In this document: in pieces, positions 58,799 through 64,000 of the stretch
Position numbering within the stretch: the first letter of the stretch is position 1
How the letters are laid out: each line of letters opens with the position of its first letter
NCBI GenBank assembly: GCA_003221695.1
Contig: QHSX01000064.1
Span: 1 to 64,000, forward strand
Direction: 5' to 3'
DNA: 64,000 bases
Source of the DNA: Candidatus Rokuibacteriota bacterium
GTDB lineage: Bacteria > Methylomirabilota > Methylomirabilia > Rokubacteriales > CSP1-6
The notes under the pieces: model-generated
What the model was told of the DNA's origin: nothing
Databases searched by the model: none
Seen by the model: the letters and a program-made list of their open reading frames with translations, nothing else
Made by a program: the position numbers and the translations under genes

Positions 58799-59329
58799 AG
58801 GATCCCCTCCCTGTGCAACAGATAGGGGGCCAGGGCTCTCTCCGCTATCAGGGGTTTCCTTGGCTCGGCTCAGGGAAGATCCCCCGTCTCGGGAAGCGCG
58901 GGAACCTGCGGGAAGTTGCGGCCGGCGCTGATTTCCCTGAGGTCGCGTGTAACCCCGCTTCGCGATTCACGAGTCGCTCGCCGTCATTCGAGAACAAGCT
59001 TCTCAAGTTCGGTCAGGTCACGGATGCCCGATCCGCATCTGCACTAACCGCACGCGGATACAGCTGGGCGCGGCTTGTTCGCTTCGCCAGCCGCGCGCTA
59101 TAGTCGGGCCGGCGCCGTGCGGAGCCCGGTGGACCGGATGTTCACGTCGTGACCTGGCTCGCGGCCTCTGGACGTATACGCGACAGGATATGCTGCAGGG
59201 GTCCCGCAGCCTATCTCGGGAAAGGGCCTGTCGGGGTGACGAGCAATTCGTTCGTATCACGAATAGGCTGCGAAATCCCCCAGCGTTTCCGGTATTACGC
59301 TGATCAGCCGATCCGGTGGCCGAATTCTA
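58799..59329. other. 531-base gap between the esterase gene and the cassette array
   Basis: No convincing gene is seen. The esterase promoter should lie at the left edge. A large imperfect foldback at 59048-59122 has outer arms CCGCACG/CGTGCGG and inner arms GCGCGGCT (59068-59075)/AGCCGCGC (59089-59096). It resembles, but does not meet, the attC pattern because no GTTRRRY box follows. Base composition falls along this stretch, marking the transition to foreign DNA. Confidence 0.5.
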
Positions 59330-59336
59330 GTTCGGC
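59330..59336 (+). other. Possible left boundary (R-box) of the first gene cassette
   Basis: GTTCGGC here is followed by GTACT; the identical 12-mer GTTCGGCGTACT occurs at 60034-60045, where it is the R' box of attC1 and the start of the second cassette. No inverted partner is seen upstream, so it could be an attI-like simple site or a decayed attC. Confidence 0.35.
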
Positions 59337-59376
59337 GTACTTCGATATGACGCTGCGTGACGACGATTCAAGGATC

Positions 59377-59985
59377 ATGGATCCCAAAACGCAAGTCCGA
59401 GAGTCGTACAACCGCATTGCGGGCGCGTATCTTTCGTCACGTCGTTGCGATTCGCCGGATGTTGCGTTGCTGAATGATCTTGTCGTCCGGCTCCCACCGC
59501 GTGCACGGGTCCTTGACGCGGGTTGCGGCGCCGGTGTCCCCATCGCCCGGCAGCTTGCGACTCGTGCCAATGTCGTCGGGGTCGACTTTGCCGACGTACA
59601 GCTCGGCCTCGCCAGACGCCACGTGCCCACGGGGCTTTGGGTCTGTGCAGACCTCGTCGCACTGCCGTTCGCTGACGCGTCGTTCGATGCGATATGCTCG
59701 TATTACGCCGTCATCCACATCCCGCGAGAAGAGCATGCGCGCGTTCTTGATGGCTTTGCACGAGTGCTACGGTCCGGAGGGCCGGCGCTTCTGTGCCTTG
59801 GCGCGGCCGACCTGCCTGCGTGGACGGAGGAGTACCACGACGCGCCAATGTATTGGAGCCACTACGATGCCGCGACGAGTCTTTCGCTGGTGAAGGCCGC
59901 CGGCTTCGACTTGGTGTGGCATCGTTGGGTCGCCGATGGATCTGGTGGTCACTTGTTCGTTCTGGCTCAGCGCCATGACGCCTAA
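59377..59985 (+). CDS. Class I SAM-dependent methyltransferase (cassette 1)
   Basis: 202-residue methyltransferase_11/25-type enzyme. The SAM motif VLDAGCGAGVP lies at about residues 46-56, 'VVGVDFAD' at motif II, and 'ADLVALPFADASFDAICSYYAVIHI' (in parts) at motifs III-IV. ATG 59377 gives the usual 'MDPKTQVRESYNRIAGAYL'-type start (in part); ATG 59347 is also possible. The stop TAA lies inside the R'' box (GCCTAAC) of attC1, the usual geometry of integron gene cassettes. G+C is lower than in the core genes. Substrate unknown. Confidence 0.85.
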   Translation: MDPKTQVRESYNRIAGAYLSSRRCDSPDVALLNDLVVRLPPRARVLDAGCGAGVPIARQLATRANVVGVDFADVQLGLARRHVPTGLWVCADLVALPFADASFDAICSYYAVIHIPREEHARVLDGFARVLRSGGPALLCLGAADLPAWTEEYHDAPMYWSHYDAATSLSLVKAAGFDLVWHRWVADGSGGHLFVLAQRHDA

Positions 59986-60040
59986 CTGCAGCTTGGAGCC
60001 GGCGGCGCTGGCGCGCCGCGGCTCAAGCTGAGCGTTCGGC
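59980..60040 (+). repeat. attC1 recombination site (integron cassette)
   Basis: 61 bp: R'' GCCTAAC (59980-59986), L'' CAGCTTGGAGCC, central GC hairpin, L' GGCTCAAGCTG, R' GTTCGGC (60034-60040). L'' and L' pair over 11 bp with one unpaired G in L'', the extrahelical base that attC sites need for strand choice. R' matches the reverse complement of R'' at six of seven positions. Confidence 0.85.
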
Positions 60041-60068
60041 GTACTAGCGGCAAGACGGAGGAGGCCAT

Positions 60069-60959
60069 ATGGCAGGTCGACGACCGGTGGTTATCCTGGC
60101 GCTGACGTTACTGGTTTTGCCGGAACTCGTGCTTCACGCCTCGGGCAAGCCCATCACGACGATGGCCCATGGCCCCAAGGGCGACGTCGAGTTCGAGACG
60201 CTCACGCTGAACGCGAGCGACTTCTGGGACGGCGTCAAGACCGGGCAGCGCGTCACCATCTCCGGCGAGCTGCTCCTGCCGAAGGGCGAGGGCCGGGTGC
60301 CCGTCGTCGTCCTGTCGCATGGCGGCGGCGGCGTGGGGCGCGCGGAGGACACCTGGGCTCGTGAGCTGCGATCACAGGGCATAGCCGTGTTTGTCGTCGA
60401 CAGCTTCACCGGCCGCGGGATCAAGAAGTTCCCGCCCGAGACAGAGCTGAGTCGCGCCGGGCAGGTGTACGACGTGTACCAGGCCCTCGCGCTCCTCGCG
60501 ACTCATCCCAGGGTCGACCCCGGCCGTATCGCGCTGATGGGCGGGTCGCGCGGCGGCGGGCTGTCCCTCCTGGCCGCGATGACGAGATCGCTAAAGGCGC
60601 AGGCGCCCGCCAACCTCGAGTTCTGCGCGTATCTCGCGCTTTACCCCTCGATCAACGCCACGCTCGACTACGGGAAGGTAGCGAGCCGCCCGATCCGCCT
60701 CTTCACGGGCACGCTCGACGAGGCCACCTCGATCACCACGGTGCGGGGCTTCGCCGAGAAGCAGCGGGCGGGCGGCGCCGACGTCAAGCTGTTCGAATAC
60801 GAAGGCGCCCACCACGCGTTCGACAACCCCGACTTCCGGGCGCCGTTGGTCGCGACGATAGGGAATACCTCGTTCACCGTGCTCTACCACGCGCAGGCTC
60901 ACGCGAGGGTCACGAAGGACGTGAAGGCGACGCTGGCCGAGGTCTTCGCGAAGCCGTGA
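60069..60959 (+). CDS. Exported dienelactone-hydrolase-like alpha/beta hydrolase (cassette 2)
   Basis: 296-residue hydrolase with a signal sequence (MAGRRPVVILALTLLVLPEL, cleavage near HASG). The nucleophile Ser160 lies in GGSRGG, a candidate acid is Asp217 in GTLDEAT, and the His is in EGAHHAFD (H248/H249). 'VVVLSHGGGGVGRAEDTWARELRSQGIAVFVVDSFTGRG' (in parts) is typical of the dienelactone hydrolase group. It has GGAGG before ATG 60069, 29 bases after attC1, and ends about 145 bases before attC2, so it fills one cassette. Confidence 0.9.
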   Translation: MAGRRPVVILALTLLVLPELVLHASGKPITTMAHGPKGDVEFETLTLNASDFWDGVKTGQRVTISGELLLPKGEGRVPVVVLSHGGGGVGRAEDTWARELRSQGIAVFVVDSFTGRGIKKFPPETELSRAGQVYDVYQALALLATHPRVDPGRIALMGGSRGGGLSLLAAMTRSLKAQAPANLEFCAYLALYPSINATLDYGKVASRPIRLFTGTLDEATSITTVRGFAEKQRAGGADVKLFEYEGAHHAFDNPDFRAPLVATIGNTSFTVLYHAQAHARVTKDVKATLAEVFAKP

Positions 60960-61104
60960 TGCCGACGGCGGGACGGAGCCAGCAAGGGACGACTGCCGGC
61001 ATGATTTCCCGGGCGCTCACGATCGAGAATCGCTTGCGGGGAGTTTGCGGGGGCCAGAAGCTCTCGCTGGAGGAGATGAAACGTGCCGTGCTGCCGAGAC
61101 GGAC

Positions 61105-61168
61105 GCCGAACAAACGCATGCAGCCGACGGCGCGCAGGGCGCGCCGCGGCTGATACGTCGCGTTAGGC
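61105..61168 (+). repeat. attC2 recombination site (integron cassette)
   Basis: 64 bp: R'' GCCGAAC (61105-61111), L'' ACGCATGCAGCCG, central stem, L' CGGCTGATACGT, R' GTTAGGC (61162-61168). L'' carries one bulged G relative to L'. R'' is the exact reverse complement of GTTCGGC at the start of the same cassette (60034), as required if the cassette once circularised. Confidence 0.88.
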
Positions 61169-61185
61169 AGGAAGGTCACAGCACG

Positions 61186-61650
61186 ATGGCGACTGAATGT
61201 CCACAATGTGGCCTGATCAATCCGCCCGCTGCCCAGCGTTGCGATTGCGGCTACAATCTCGCCCAACGCCCCACTCTCAATGCGTCGCGAATCGGCCTTC
61301 AGGCTTTGTTGTTCTCTTTTACCGGTCGAATAGGCCGGTCTACATATTGGCTCAAGTTTCTCGTGCCGTATTTTGCACTCTACTTGGTATTGCTGGTCGT
61401 CGACTGGACTCTGGGAACACTTGATCGCAAGGAAGCTATTGGTCTCCTTTCTGGGATCTTCCTACTCCTGGCGTTGTTCCCGTCTGTTGCTGTCGGCGTG
61501 AAGAGGTGCCACGACAGGGACCGGTCCGGATGGTTCCTCCTGGTGGGAGTCATCCCCTTTTTGAATCTGTGGCTTCTGATCGAGCTCGGGTTCATGGCCG
61601 GGACAGCCGGGCCTAATAGGTACGGGCTCCCTGAGCCACGCGTGGTCTGA
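61186..61650 (+). CDS. Zinc-ribbon DUF805 membrane protein (cassette 3)
   Basis: 154 residues. An N-terminal zinc ribbon (CPQCGLINPPAAQRCDCG, residues 5-22) is followed by a DUF805 domain: 'FTGRIGRSTYWLKFLVPYF' (in part) opens it, and 'GVKRCHDRDRSGWFLL' is the family hallmark. Three helices span about residues 55-75, 88-105 and 118-135. Function is unknown; DUF805 proteins are common in mobile regions. ATG 61186 lies 18 bases after attC2, and AGGAAGG precedes it. G+C is visibly lower than elsewhere. Confidence 0.87.
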   Translation: MATECPQCGLINPPAAQRCDCGYNLAQRPTLNASRIGLQALLFSFTGRIGRSTYWLKFLVPYFALYLVLLVVDWTLGTLDRKEAIGLLSGIFLLLALFPSVAVGVKRCHDRDRSGWFLLVGVIPFLNLWLLIELGFMAGTAGPNRYGLPEPRVV

Positions 61651-61694
61651 GCGTCAGCAGGGAGCTATGGTACCCAACCGTCTGCGCTGTCCCT

Positions 61695-61752
61695 GCTTAA
61701 CCTCGGCATTCAGCCGACGGCCTGTGGCCGCGGCTGATGCCGGGCGTTGAGC
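61695..61752 (+). repeat. attC3 recombination site, interrupted by an IS element
   Basis: R'' GCTTAAC (61695-61701), L'' CGGCATTCAGCCG, L' CGGCTGATGCCG with one bulged T in L'', then GGC and GTT. The expected R' box reads GTTGAGC, but GAGC (61749-61752) is probably the end of the inserted IS; rejoining the IS flanks would give GTTAGAA. The inner arms share the CAGCCG/CGGCTGAT core with attC2. Confidence 0.82.
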
Positions 61753-61831
61753 CTGTAGAAAAACCTTGGAATCGCCGTCGTCTCGTCTCTCGTGTGAAGA
61801 GCGCGACGACCTCACACGATGAGGAGGAGCG

Positions 61832-63373
61832 ATGGCGCGGTTTAAGCCCTACAGCTACGATCAGCTGAAGCTCGTGCCGGTGAGCTTCGAGCGCCAGATC
61901 CTGCCGGGCACGTTCGAGGCTACGCTGAGCCGCCTGATCGACGAGGAGATCGATCTGTCGGTGTTCGAAGCCCGGTACCGTAACGACGAGGTGGGGGCGC
62001 CGGCCTACGACCCGGCCATCCTTCTCAAAGTCATCCTTTATGCCTACGCCCGCGGCGTGACCTCCAGCCGCGAGATTGCCCGGCTGTGTCGGGAGAATGT
62101 CCTGTTCATGGCGTTGTCGGCCGACAGCGCGCCCCACTTCACGACGATCGCAGATTTCATTGCGACGCTCGACCGGGAGATCGTCGCCGTGTTCCGGGAC
62201 GTGCTCTTGGTGTGTGACGAGCTGGGGCTGATCGGGCGAGAGATGTTCGCCGTCGATGGGGTGAAGCTGCCGAGCAATGCCTCCAAGGAGTGGAGCGGCA
62301 CCCGGGGGGACTTCGAGAAGAAGATCGCGAAGATGGAACGTGCGGTTGAGCATCTGGTGCGCCGTCACCGCGACGCCGACGCGGCGGGGGACGAGGAACC
62401 GCTGCGGGTGGCGCGGGGCAAGCAGATCGAGACCCTCCAGGCGGCGCTGGAGAAGGTCCGGGGGTTTCTTCAACGCCACGCGGACAAGGTCGGGCCCAGC
62501 GGGCGGGTGAAGAAGAGCAACCTCACCGACAACGACAGTGCCAAGATGAAGACCTCGAAGGGCGTGATCCAGGGCTACGACGGGGTGGCGGTCGTGGACG
62601 GCCAGCATCAAATCGTGGTCCACGCGCAGGCCTTCGGCGAAGCCCAGGAGCACGCGCTGCTGGTGCCCATGTTGGAGGGGACGCGAGCGACGTTTCGCGA
62701 GCTGGGCCTCGCCGAGGACGTGCTGGCGGGCGCGGTGGTCGCGGCGGACGCGGGCTTCCACACGGACGCGAACGTGCAGTACCTCGACGAGACGCACGTC
62801 GACGGCTATCTGGCCGACACGTTGTTTCGCAAGCGCGACCCGCGCTTTGTCACCGCCGAGCGGCATAAGCCCGAGCCGGTGGACGATCCCGCGCGGCTCT
62901 TTCGGCCCGAGGACTTTCGCTTCGACCCGAAGAGCTTGACCTGCATCTGCCCGGCGGGCAAGCGGCTGTACCGGAGCGGCCAACACAACCGTCCTGACGG
63001 CTATCGCGCGGTGATCTTCAAAGGGGCCAAGCGGGACTGCGGGGCGTGCCCGCTGCGCGCCCGGTGCCTGACGCATCCCGAGCGCACTCTGATCCGACAG
63101 GTCACGCTCTTCCTGGGACGATCCCCGGGCAAGCCGGAGACCTGCAGCGCTCGCATGAAGCGCAAGATCGACACCGACCACGGGCGCTATCAGTACAGTC
63201 GCCGGCTTGCGGTGGCCGAGCCGGTGTTTGCGAACATCTGCAGCAGCCGCCGCTTGAGGCGGTTCAGCCTGCGCGGCCACCGAAAGATCAACACCCAGTG
63301 GCTGCTGTACTGCCTGGTGCACAACATCGGGAAGCTGCAACGCTACGGGACGAGCGAGGGCCGATCGGCATGA
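61832..63373 (+). CDS. IS1182-family DDE transposase
   Basis: 513 residues. N-terminal DUF772 region (about 45-120: 'YDPAILLKVILYAYARGVTSSREI', in part), then the RNase-H-like core with catalytic D142 in VDGVKLPSNAS, D306 in AADAGFH and E463 in VAEPVFANI. A Cys cluster (C371, C373, C403, C406, C412) between the second Asp and the Glu may bind zinc, as in many IS1182/IS5-like transposases. A helical insertion lies at about 155-225. ATG 61832 follows GGAGGAG. The frame is uninterrupted, so it is probably active. Confidence 0.92.
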   Translation: MARFKPYSYDQLKLVPVSFERQILPGTFEATLSRLIDEEIDLSVFEARYRNDEVGAPAYDPAILLKVILYAYARGVTSSREIARLCRENVLFMALSADSAPHFTTIADFIATLDREIVAVFRDVLLVCDELGLIGREMFAVDGVKLPSNASKEWSGTRGDFEKKIAKMERAVEHLVRRHRDADAAGDEEPLRVARGKQIETLQAALEKVRGFLQRHADKVGPSGRVKKSNLTDNDSAKMKTSKGVIQGYDGVAVVDGQHQIVVHAQAFGEAQEHALLVPMLEGTRATFRELGLAEDVLAGAVVAADAGFHTDANVQYLDETHVDGYLADTLFRKRDPRFVTAERHKPEPVDDPARLFRPEDFRFDPKSLTCICPAGKRLYRSGQHNRPDGYRAVIFKGAKRDCGACPLRARCLTHPERTLIRQVTLFLGRSPGKPETCSARMKRKIDTDHGRYQYSRRLAVAEPVFANICSSRRLRRFSLRGHRKINTQWLLYCLVHNIGKLQRYGTSEGRSA

Positions 63374-63503
63374 ACGGATCGATCCGCCAGAGCGAGAACG
63401 GCCGCAGGCGATGCTGAGAGATCGGCTGTCGGCACCCCTCGCCTCCCTCGATAAAGACCGCCGACACTAGGGCGATTCTGGCGATGGCAGGCTTCGCAAA
63501 CCT

Positions 63504-63520
63504 GGTTTTTCTACAGACTC
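63504..63520 (-). repeat. Right terminal inverted repeat of the IS
   Basis: GGTTTTTCTACAGACTC, the inverted copy (16 of 17) of the left end at 61749-61765. Confidence 0.85.
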
Positions 63521-63550
63521 GTTAGAAGGACAAGAGTCGAGGAGGTACCC

Positions 63551-63991
63551 ATGGGCCGACCGTACGCGACAGAAAACGATGCTGAGCGCACCAGACTGAA
63601 GGCCTTCGTAGCCGGGCTGAGGGATGCCACGATCGCTCGCTCCATCGGCCATGGGTGGACGGTCGGCGTTGGTCTGGCACACTTGGCCTTCTGGGACAGG
63701 CTCTGGCTCGCCAAGTTCGAGGAGTGGGAGCGCACGGGTGTGGTGAGGGTGCCGCCAGTCGAGAGCTTCGTCAACGGAATCAACGACGGCATGCTGCCCT
63801 GGTGGCAGGCTATTGCGCCAGCCCAGATCAGGTACGAGGTGATCGCGGCGGCCGAGGCGGCGGACAGCAAGGCTGAGAGCCTGCGCGAGGCATTGGCCCA
63901 GGCAATCCTCGCGGTGCGTCCGCGGACTCTTGTTCGTGCGACCCATCGCCGTCAGCATCTGGACGAAATCGAGCGCGCCCTTGCCGACTGA
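63551..63991 (+). CDS. DinB-like four-helix protein (cassette 4)
   Basis: 146 residues, mainly helical, in the DinB/DfsB/maleylpyruvate-isomerase-N style: 'SIGHGWTVGVGLAHLAFWDRLWLAKFEEW' (in parts, about residues 31-59) carries the conserved GWTV..LAHL..WD pattern with a His that binds metal in the family. GAGGAGG precedes ATG 63551. If the IS were removed, this ATG would lie 30 bases after the attC3 core, the same spacing as in the other cassettes. Function is unknown; relatives act on thiol conjugates or DNA-damaging metabolites. No attC is visible before the window ends. Confidence 0.78.
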   Translation: MGRPYATENDAERTRLKAFVAGLRDATIARSIGHGWTVGVGLAHLAFWDRLWLAKFEEWERTGVVRVPPVESFVNGINDGMLPWWQAIAPAQIRYEVIAAAEAADSKAESLREALAQAILAVRPRTLVRATHRRQHLDEIERALAD

Positions 63992-64000
63992 CGACAGGTA

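Follow-up and report, generated by a model that had tools for sequence, protein, structure and literature searches.

A probable decayed integron of the inverted type in a Candidatus Rokuibacteriota genome and an IS1182-family element inserted at one of its attC sites

The stretch of DNA studied here (the window) comprises positions 1–64000, forward strand, of contig C21 of a Candidatus Rokuibacteriota bacterium, the draft genome of which (G000; 4.6 Mb, 109 contigs) is rated 100% complete. The region from 59105 to about 70950, which runs past the window along the contig, was identified as an inverted-type chromosomal integron minus its integrase, IntI, with an estimated probability of about 95% on the sequence evidence. 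An earlier interpretation made from the letters alone (the sequence-only reading) had described the windowed part as a run of integron-type gene cassettes. The cassettes are borne out by a covariance model, by a cassette-ownership test and by the linkage of such sites to IntI in relatives; that reading was incomplete in that the locus is a decayed, inverted-type integron and not a free cassette cluster. Labels C11, C21, C28, C32, C34, C46 and C53 refer to contigs of this genome, other G and L labels to other genomes or extracted loci.

The covariance model (CM R1) with which the attC sites were evaluated was built from 24 attC sites that neighbour IntI genes in genomes of the family other than this one. 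In the training alignment 92.7% of the cells were paired and 92 cells showed compensatory changes; neither value was reached in 500 shuffles. The three attC sites proposed in the sequence-only reading were recovered at exactly the same coordinates with 55.8–57.0 bits (Table 1), and the best non-overlapping match below them in the window scored 14.8 bits (E 0.15). The arrangement R''-L''...L'-R', the paired arms, an extra base in the left arm and the array placement after genes were all found. When the 64 kb were scanned for R''/R' boxes that flank one foldable stem, attC1–attC3 were the sole matches; first-order shuffles gave 6 matches per 640 kb. Nothing was matched in Rfam at the gathering or relaxed thresholds, and Rfam appears to be without an attC family. 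The finer details claimed earlier were also confirmed: the stop codon of the methyltransferase gene (59983–59985) lies within the R'' box of attC1 (59980–59986), and the GC content of the cassette genes is lower, 0.55–0.68 compared with 0.696 for positions 1–59,000. As GC-rich hairpins at gene ends, the sites might be taken for ordinary repeats (terminator hairpins, repetitive extragenic palindrome-like elements or remnants of insertion sequences (IS)) standing after genes by chance. This is extremely improbable, given the R''/R' boxes, the extra left-arm base, scores 40 bits over the background, the clustering in an array, the co-orientation with IntI of 88 out of 88 attC sites and the cassette-ownership signature.

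The cassette-ownership test rests on the circular form of a cassette, which joins its own R' to its own R''; the R'' box should therefore match the R' of its own cassette and not the abutting one. Among 41 adjacent pairs, R'' was a perfect match to the own-cassette R' in 26 and to the adjacent R' in 8 (25 and 8 in the paired comparison; permutation p 5e-5). The window offers two perfect examples. As had been claimed, the R'' of attC2 (GCCGAAC), when reverse-complemented, reads exactly as the R' that opens its own cassette (GTTCGGC at 60034); in the DinB cassette, TTCTAAC (R'' at 64019) likewise pairs base for base with GTTAGAA (R' at 63521). The result supports the view that the cassettes were once circular intermediates, mobile circles joined at G/TT, and says nothing of their present activity. 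The array is longer than the earlier claim of three attC sites: the three are real, but at least eight more are present on the contig to the right of 64000, starting at contig positions 64019, 65139, 66105, 66621, 67225, 67849, 69752 and 70863. The total of 11 attC sites, all on the + strand, ends at contig position 70,949. Genome-wide, about 40 attC sites are spread over nine contigs.

The claim that no integrase is visible was not upheld, since an intI 3' stub adjoins an attI site upstream of the array. In every blastn comparison the homology of the stub to the intI of relatives breaks off at about 59105. The attI profile, made from ten other genomes, detected 59248–59341 with E 1.5e-16 and 59154–59219 with E 2e-8 (nhmmer), and there was no further match on the + strand within the 64-kb window. 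In relatives, the intI stop and the first R' box stand about 180–230 conserved bases apart; here the R' box of attI (GTTCGGC at 59330–59336) forms the junction with cassette 1. No functional IntI is encoded at this locus, as only about 15 terminal codons are left. Judged from its sequence, the locus is an integron with intI deleted from the 5' side and attI kept. A motif, GATANGCTGC, is repeated in inverted arms of attI at 59198–59214 and 59263–59279 and is conserved across the family; it possibly provides further binding sites for IntI or a site for a regulator. No sigma-70-like promoter was found in attI.

The absence of an adjoining intI gene, together with several other attC clusters of this genome on contigs without IntI, would also agree with a free cluster of attC sites lacking integrases (CALIN), in which cassettes were put at secondary sites by an integrase encoded elsewhere and were never tied to an integrase here. 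This explanation is very unlikely, because attI and the intI stub stand directly upstream at normal spacing, which points to a decayed integron. The locus resembles the CALINs and decayed integrons defined by IntegronFinder (PMC9024848) in that at least two attC sites occur with no functional integrase close by; it differs from a CALIN in that attI and the intI stub are kept and still show where the cluster came from.

The inverted architecture was determined at 30 loci in which IntI and attC occur together; they come from the family and its class and, beyond these, from a single more distant genome. In all 30, IntI points to attI and the cassettes, and every one of the 88 attC sites is co-oriented with intI; 86 of them lie on the 3' side of intI, mostly at a spacing of 0.4–1.5 kb. 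The intI stub of the window has the inverted orientation too. By the same method, the classical orientation was obtained for 10 named loci of Proteobacteria, Cyanobacteria, Chloroflexota and Nitrospinota; since these were recovered by the same model, the inverted result was not forced by the method. The linked IntI proteins of relatives scored 454–457 bits on TIGR02249 (cut-off 265), and IntI matched VchIntIA (2a3v) over its full length with E 1e-112. In a tree of 45 IntI proteins, those of the family form one clade (99/99), including one contig binned as Acidobacteria. The clade falls inside a mostly inverted branch (83/91, the bootstrap not having fully settled), to which Treponema, Planctomycetia and an Actinomycetota bin also belong. 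The contig in question, QHWF01000814.1 (L101, labelled Acidobacteria gp6 AA50), has attC sites of 70–75 bits and is either misbinned or a case of transfer.

An inverted layout has been described for Treponema (PMC3607928), and the layout is termed the inverted integrase group (PMC10500605, PMC8352920). Like Treponema denticola and other treponemes, the present lineage has an inverted chromosomal integron, and the IntI proteins group together. In contrast to Treponema, the host belongs to a different phylum, the attC sites are short (57–97 nt) and GC-rich, every IntI copy of this genome is broken, and attC sites occur in almost all genomes of the family.

Two further IntI genes were found, on C28 and C11; both are broken, resulting in three broken copies together with the stub. 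The C28 IntI is without its N-terminal half and still scored 290 bits on TIGR02249. The C11 IntI has internal deletions with about 85 residues lost, and the gap includes what we take to be the region of the first catalytic arginine. The second integron, on C28 (L019 1–2463), consists of attI, two attC sites and the 5'-truncated intI, and abuts a tyrosine-recombinase fragment near a tRNA-like sequence. The third, on C11 (L020 6490–9586 onward), consists of the damaged intI, attI, a XerC-like recombinase, an IS91-family transposase and six attC sites. Two other recombinases were ruled out as IntI by their TIGR02249 scores: the tyrosine recombinase at contig positions 72395–72868 (42 bits) and a 314-aa recombinase on C11 (182 bits).

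Three points weigh against the assignment of the locus as a decayed integron: the intI stub is only 48 bp long; the attC sites were scored by a covariance model made here and not by IntegronFinder's own model; and this genome yielded no intact IntI, so that the array is probably not active at present, barring an intI hidden in an assembly gap. In that event, an intact IntI missed by the assembly could still act on the array in trans. The array contigs C28, C32, C46 and C53 end in repeats, indicating that integron parts are unassembled. Trans activity is nevertheless rather unlikely, considering the completeness rating and the breakage of all three IntI copies.

Table 1. Features of the integron region (contig coordinates; covariance-model E-values are rough).
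Feature	Position	Strand	Evidence
intI 3' stub, last ~15 codons + stop	59105–59152	+	reads ...GAVRSPVDRMFTS then stop, relatives GPAAVRSPADRMFPS then stop; blastn 85–88% to intI ends of the closest relatives
attI	59153–59336	+	attI profile; spacing from intI stop as in relatives
Cassette 1 gene, S-adenosylmethionine-dependent methyltransferase, 212 aa	59347–59985 (ATG 59347 or 59377)	+	Pfam Methyltransf_25 E 5e-19
attC1	59980–60040	+	CM R1 56.9 bits, E 4.6e-13
Cassette 2 gene, dienelactone-hydrolase-type alpha/beta hydrolase, 296 aa	60069–60959	+	Pfam DLH E 2.6e-14
attC2	61105–61168	+	CM R1 55.8 bits, E 9.3e-13
Cassette 3 gene, DUF805 membrane protein, 154 aa	61186–61650	+	Pfam DUF805 E 2e-27
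attC3	61695–61752	+	CM R1 57.0 bits, E 4.3e-13
IS1182-family IS	61749–63520	+	17-bp terminal inverted repeats; GTT duplicated 61746–61748 / 63521–63523
IS1182 transposase	61832–63373	+	NF033551 271.4 bits, cut-off 270 (marginal)
Cassette 4 start	63521–64000	+	R' box GTTAGAA 63521–63527
Cassette 4 gene, DinB/MDMPI-like	63551–63991	+	Pfam MDMPI_N E 1.4e-4, weak, under cut-off
Cassette 4 attC	contig 64019–64087	+	54.8 bits

Pfam matches along the array comprised the methyltransferase, the DLH hydrolase, DUF805, the weak DinB-like match, a cupin, an O-methyltransferase-like protein, a leucine carboxyl methyltransferase, NUDIX, a HicA-HicB toxin-antitoxin pair, an M23 peptidase, an alpha/beta hydrolase and PNPOx; two proteins were without a match. 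The HicA-HicB cassette is located at C21:66739–67194 (L017 6740–7195), and cassettes of this type are thought to stabilise integron arrays. When ten cassette proteins were submitted to PADLOC, one weak-to-moderate candidate was obtained (PDC-S07, matched by the NUDIX protein), which was not accepted as defence. A methyltransferase cassette (MSVRAFYDDLAP...) is near-identical at several array contig ends (L197, L198, L199, L019) and is likely to have broken the assembly, with some uncertainty as to array copy number; contig breaks of the draft genome fall inside arrays. In the synteny comparison, the left flank was common to the three congeners up to about 57.0–57.1 kb and the right flank from 77.5 kb was common to G003, there on another contig, which places the array within a variable region of about 20 kb. 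A clean empty site was not demonstrable, and no tRNA was found at the array boundaries.

The IS1182-family element, the ends of which are GAGCCTGTAGAAAAACC and GGTTTTTCTACAGACTC, stands within the R' box of attC3 with the junctions CGTT|IS|GTTAGAA, the GTT core at 61746–61748 being the target. The terminal GAGC of attC3 (61749–61752) derives from the IS end, and this left end restores the split R' to GTTRRRY. The same junctions were found in all other copies detected in the genome (C11:138146 left, C46:431 right, C34:126845 right), in an 83% identical element of another genus (G056:C38), in an element with 43% protein identity in Pseudoalteromonas piscicida, and at single ends in Pseudoalteromonas NC201 and Paraglaciecola. 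The extracted loci with insertions at the attC R' GTT core are L209 (1354–3109), L211 (1380–3218), L212 (about 3083) and L140 (- strand); in every case examined, GTT was duplicated and the R' consensus was rebuilt by the left end. Apparently, Methylomirabilota and marine Gammaproteobacteria share an attC-homing subgroup of IS1182. Viral contigs gave no match when searched for the pattern of the IS end. The known attC-targeting IS are those of the unrelated IS1111-attC group (ISKpn4, ISPst6; cited in PMC11187229). The present element is similar in targeting attC; it differs from IS1111, which is of the RNA-guided DEDD type, in having an IS1182 DDE transposase, terminal inverted repeats and a GTT duplicated at the R' core. 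Nothing relevant was found in the literature on IS1182 together with attC, and the attC-homing IS1182 may be new.

A history may be proposed; what we infer in it is how recombination proceeded chemically, in which order the events occurred and that the array can no longer recombine. The ancestor would have had an intI transcribed towards attI. IntI would have joined the folded bottom strand of the attC of a circular cassette to attI, so that the cassettes came to run the same way as intI. A deletion on the upstream side would then have taken intI save for its last codons, while attI and 11 attC sites stayed behind in a frozen state, and the IS1182 element would have been inserted later at the R' core of attC3.

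Within the family, attC sites at E <= 1e-4 were detected in 55 of 57 genomes; outside the family, at E <= 1e-6, roughly two-thirds of the remaining genomes of the class had them, as did 14 of about 100 genomes from other phyla. IntI at E <= 1e-40 was found in 26 of the 57 family genomes and was full-length or nearly so in 19, both counts being lower bounds. PmoA is encoded by members of the same class with genomes of 2.5–3.0 Mb (one of them a single contig), like Methylomirabilis, and was not found in this genome. A placement of the family, with its genomes of 4–7 Mb and no PmoA here, on the Rokubacteria side fits these data. The earlier remark that integrons are poorly documented in Rokubacteria/Methylomirabilota was in agreement with our findings: class members carry particulate methane monooxygenase, and the papers found report no integron. 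No relevant report on an integron in this lineage was obtained by a search with subscription papers outside its range, and a Rokubacteria genome paper is without the word "integron". Gammaproteobacteria, with about a dozen further phyla, account for most described integrons, and the phylum lists found in reviews omit Methylomirabilota (PMC10500605). The inverted chromosomal integron is of a known kind, and the host lineage appears to be new.

Taken jointly, two linked novelties are considered likely: inverted integrons that are near-universal and long-resident in a Rokubacteria-type family, with the IntI mostly in one clade, and an IS1182 subgroup that homes to the attC R' GTT core, rebuilds R' with its left end (GAGC/GAGG) and rides the arrays of Methylomirabilota and marine Gammaproteobacteria. 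An attC-homing IS1182 would constitute a second way for mobile elements to exploit attC. With three broken integrases and about 40 attC sites, this genome offers a clear case of the passage from an integron to an integrase-less array, a step that is mostly inferred and rarely observed with both the stub and attI left. The occurrence of attC sites in nearly all members of a family with genomes of 4–7 Mb amounts to a sizeable hidden pool of mobile genes.
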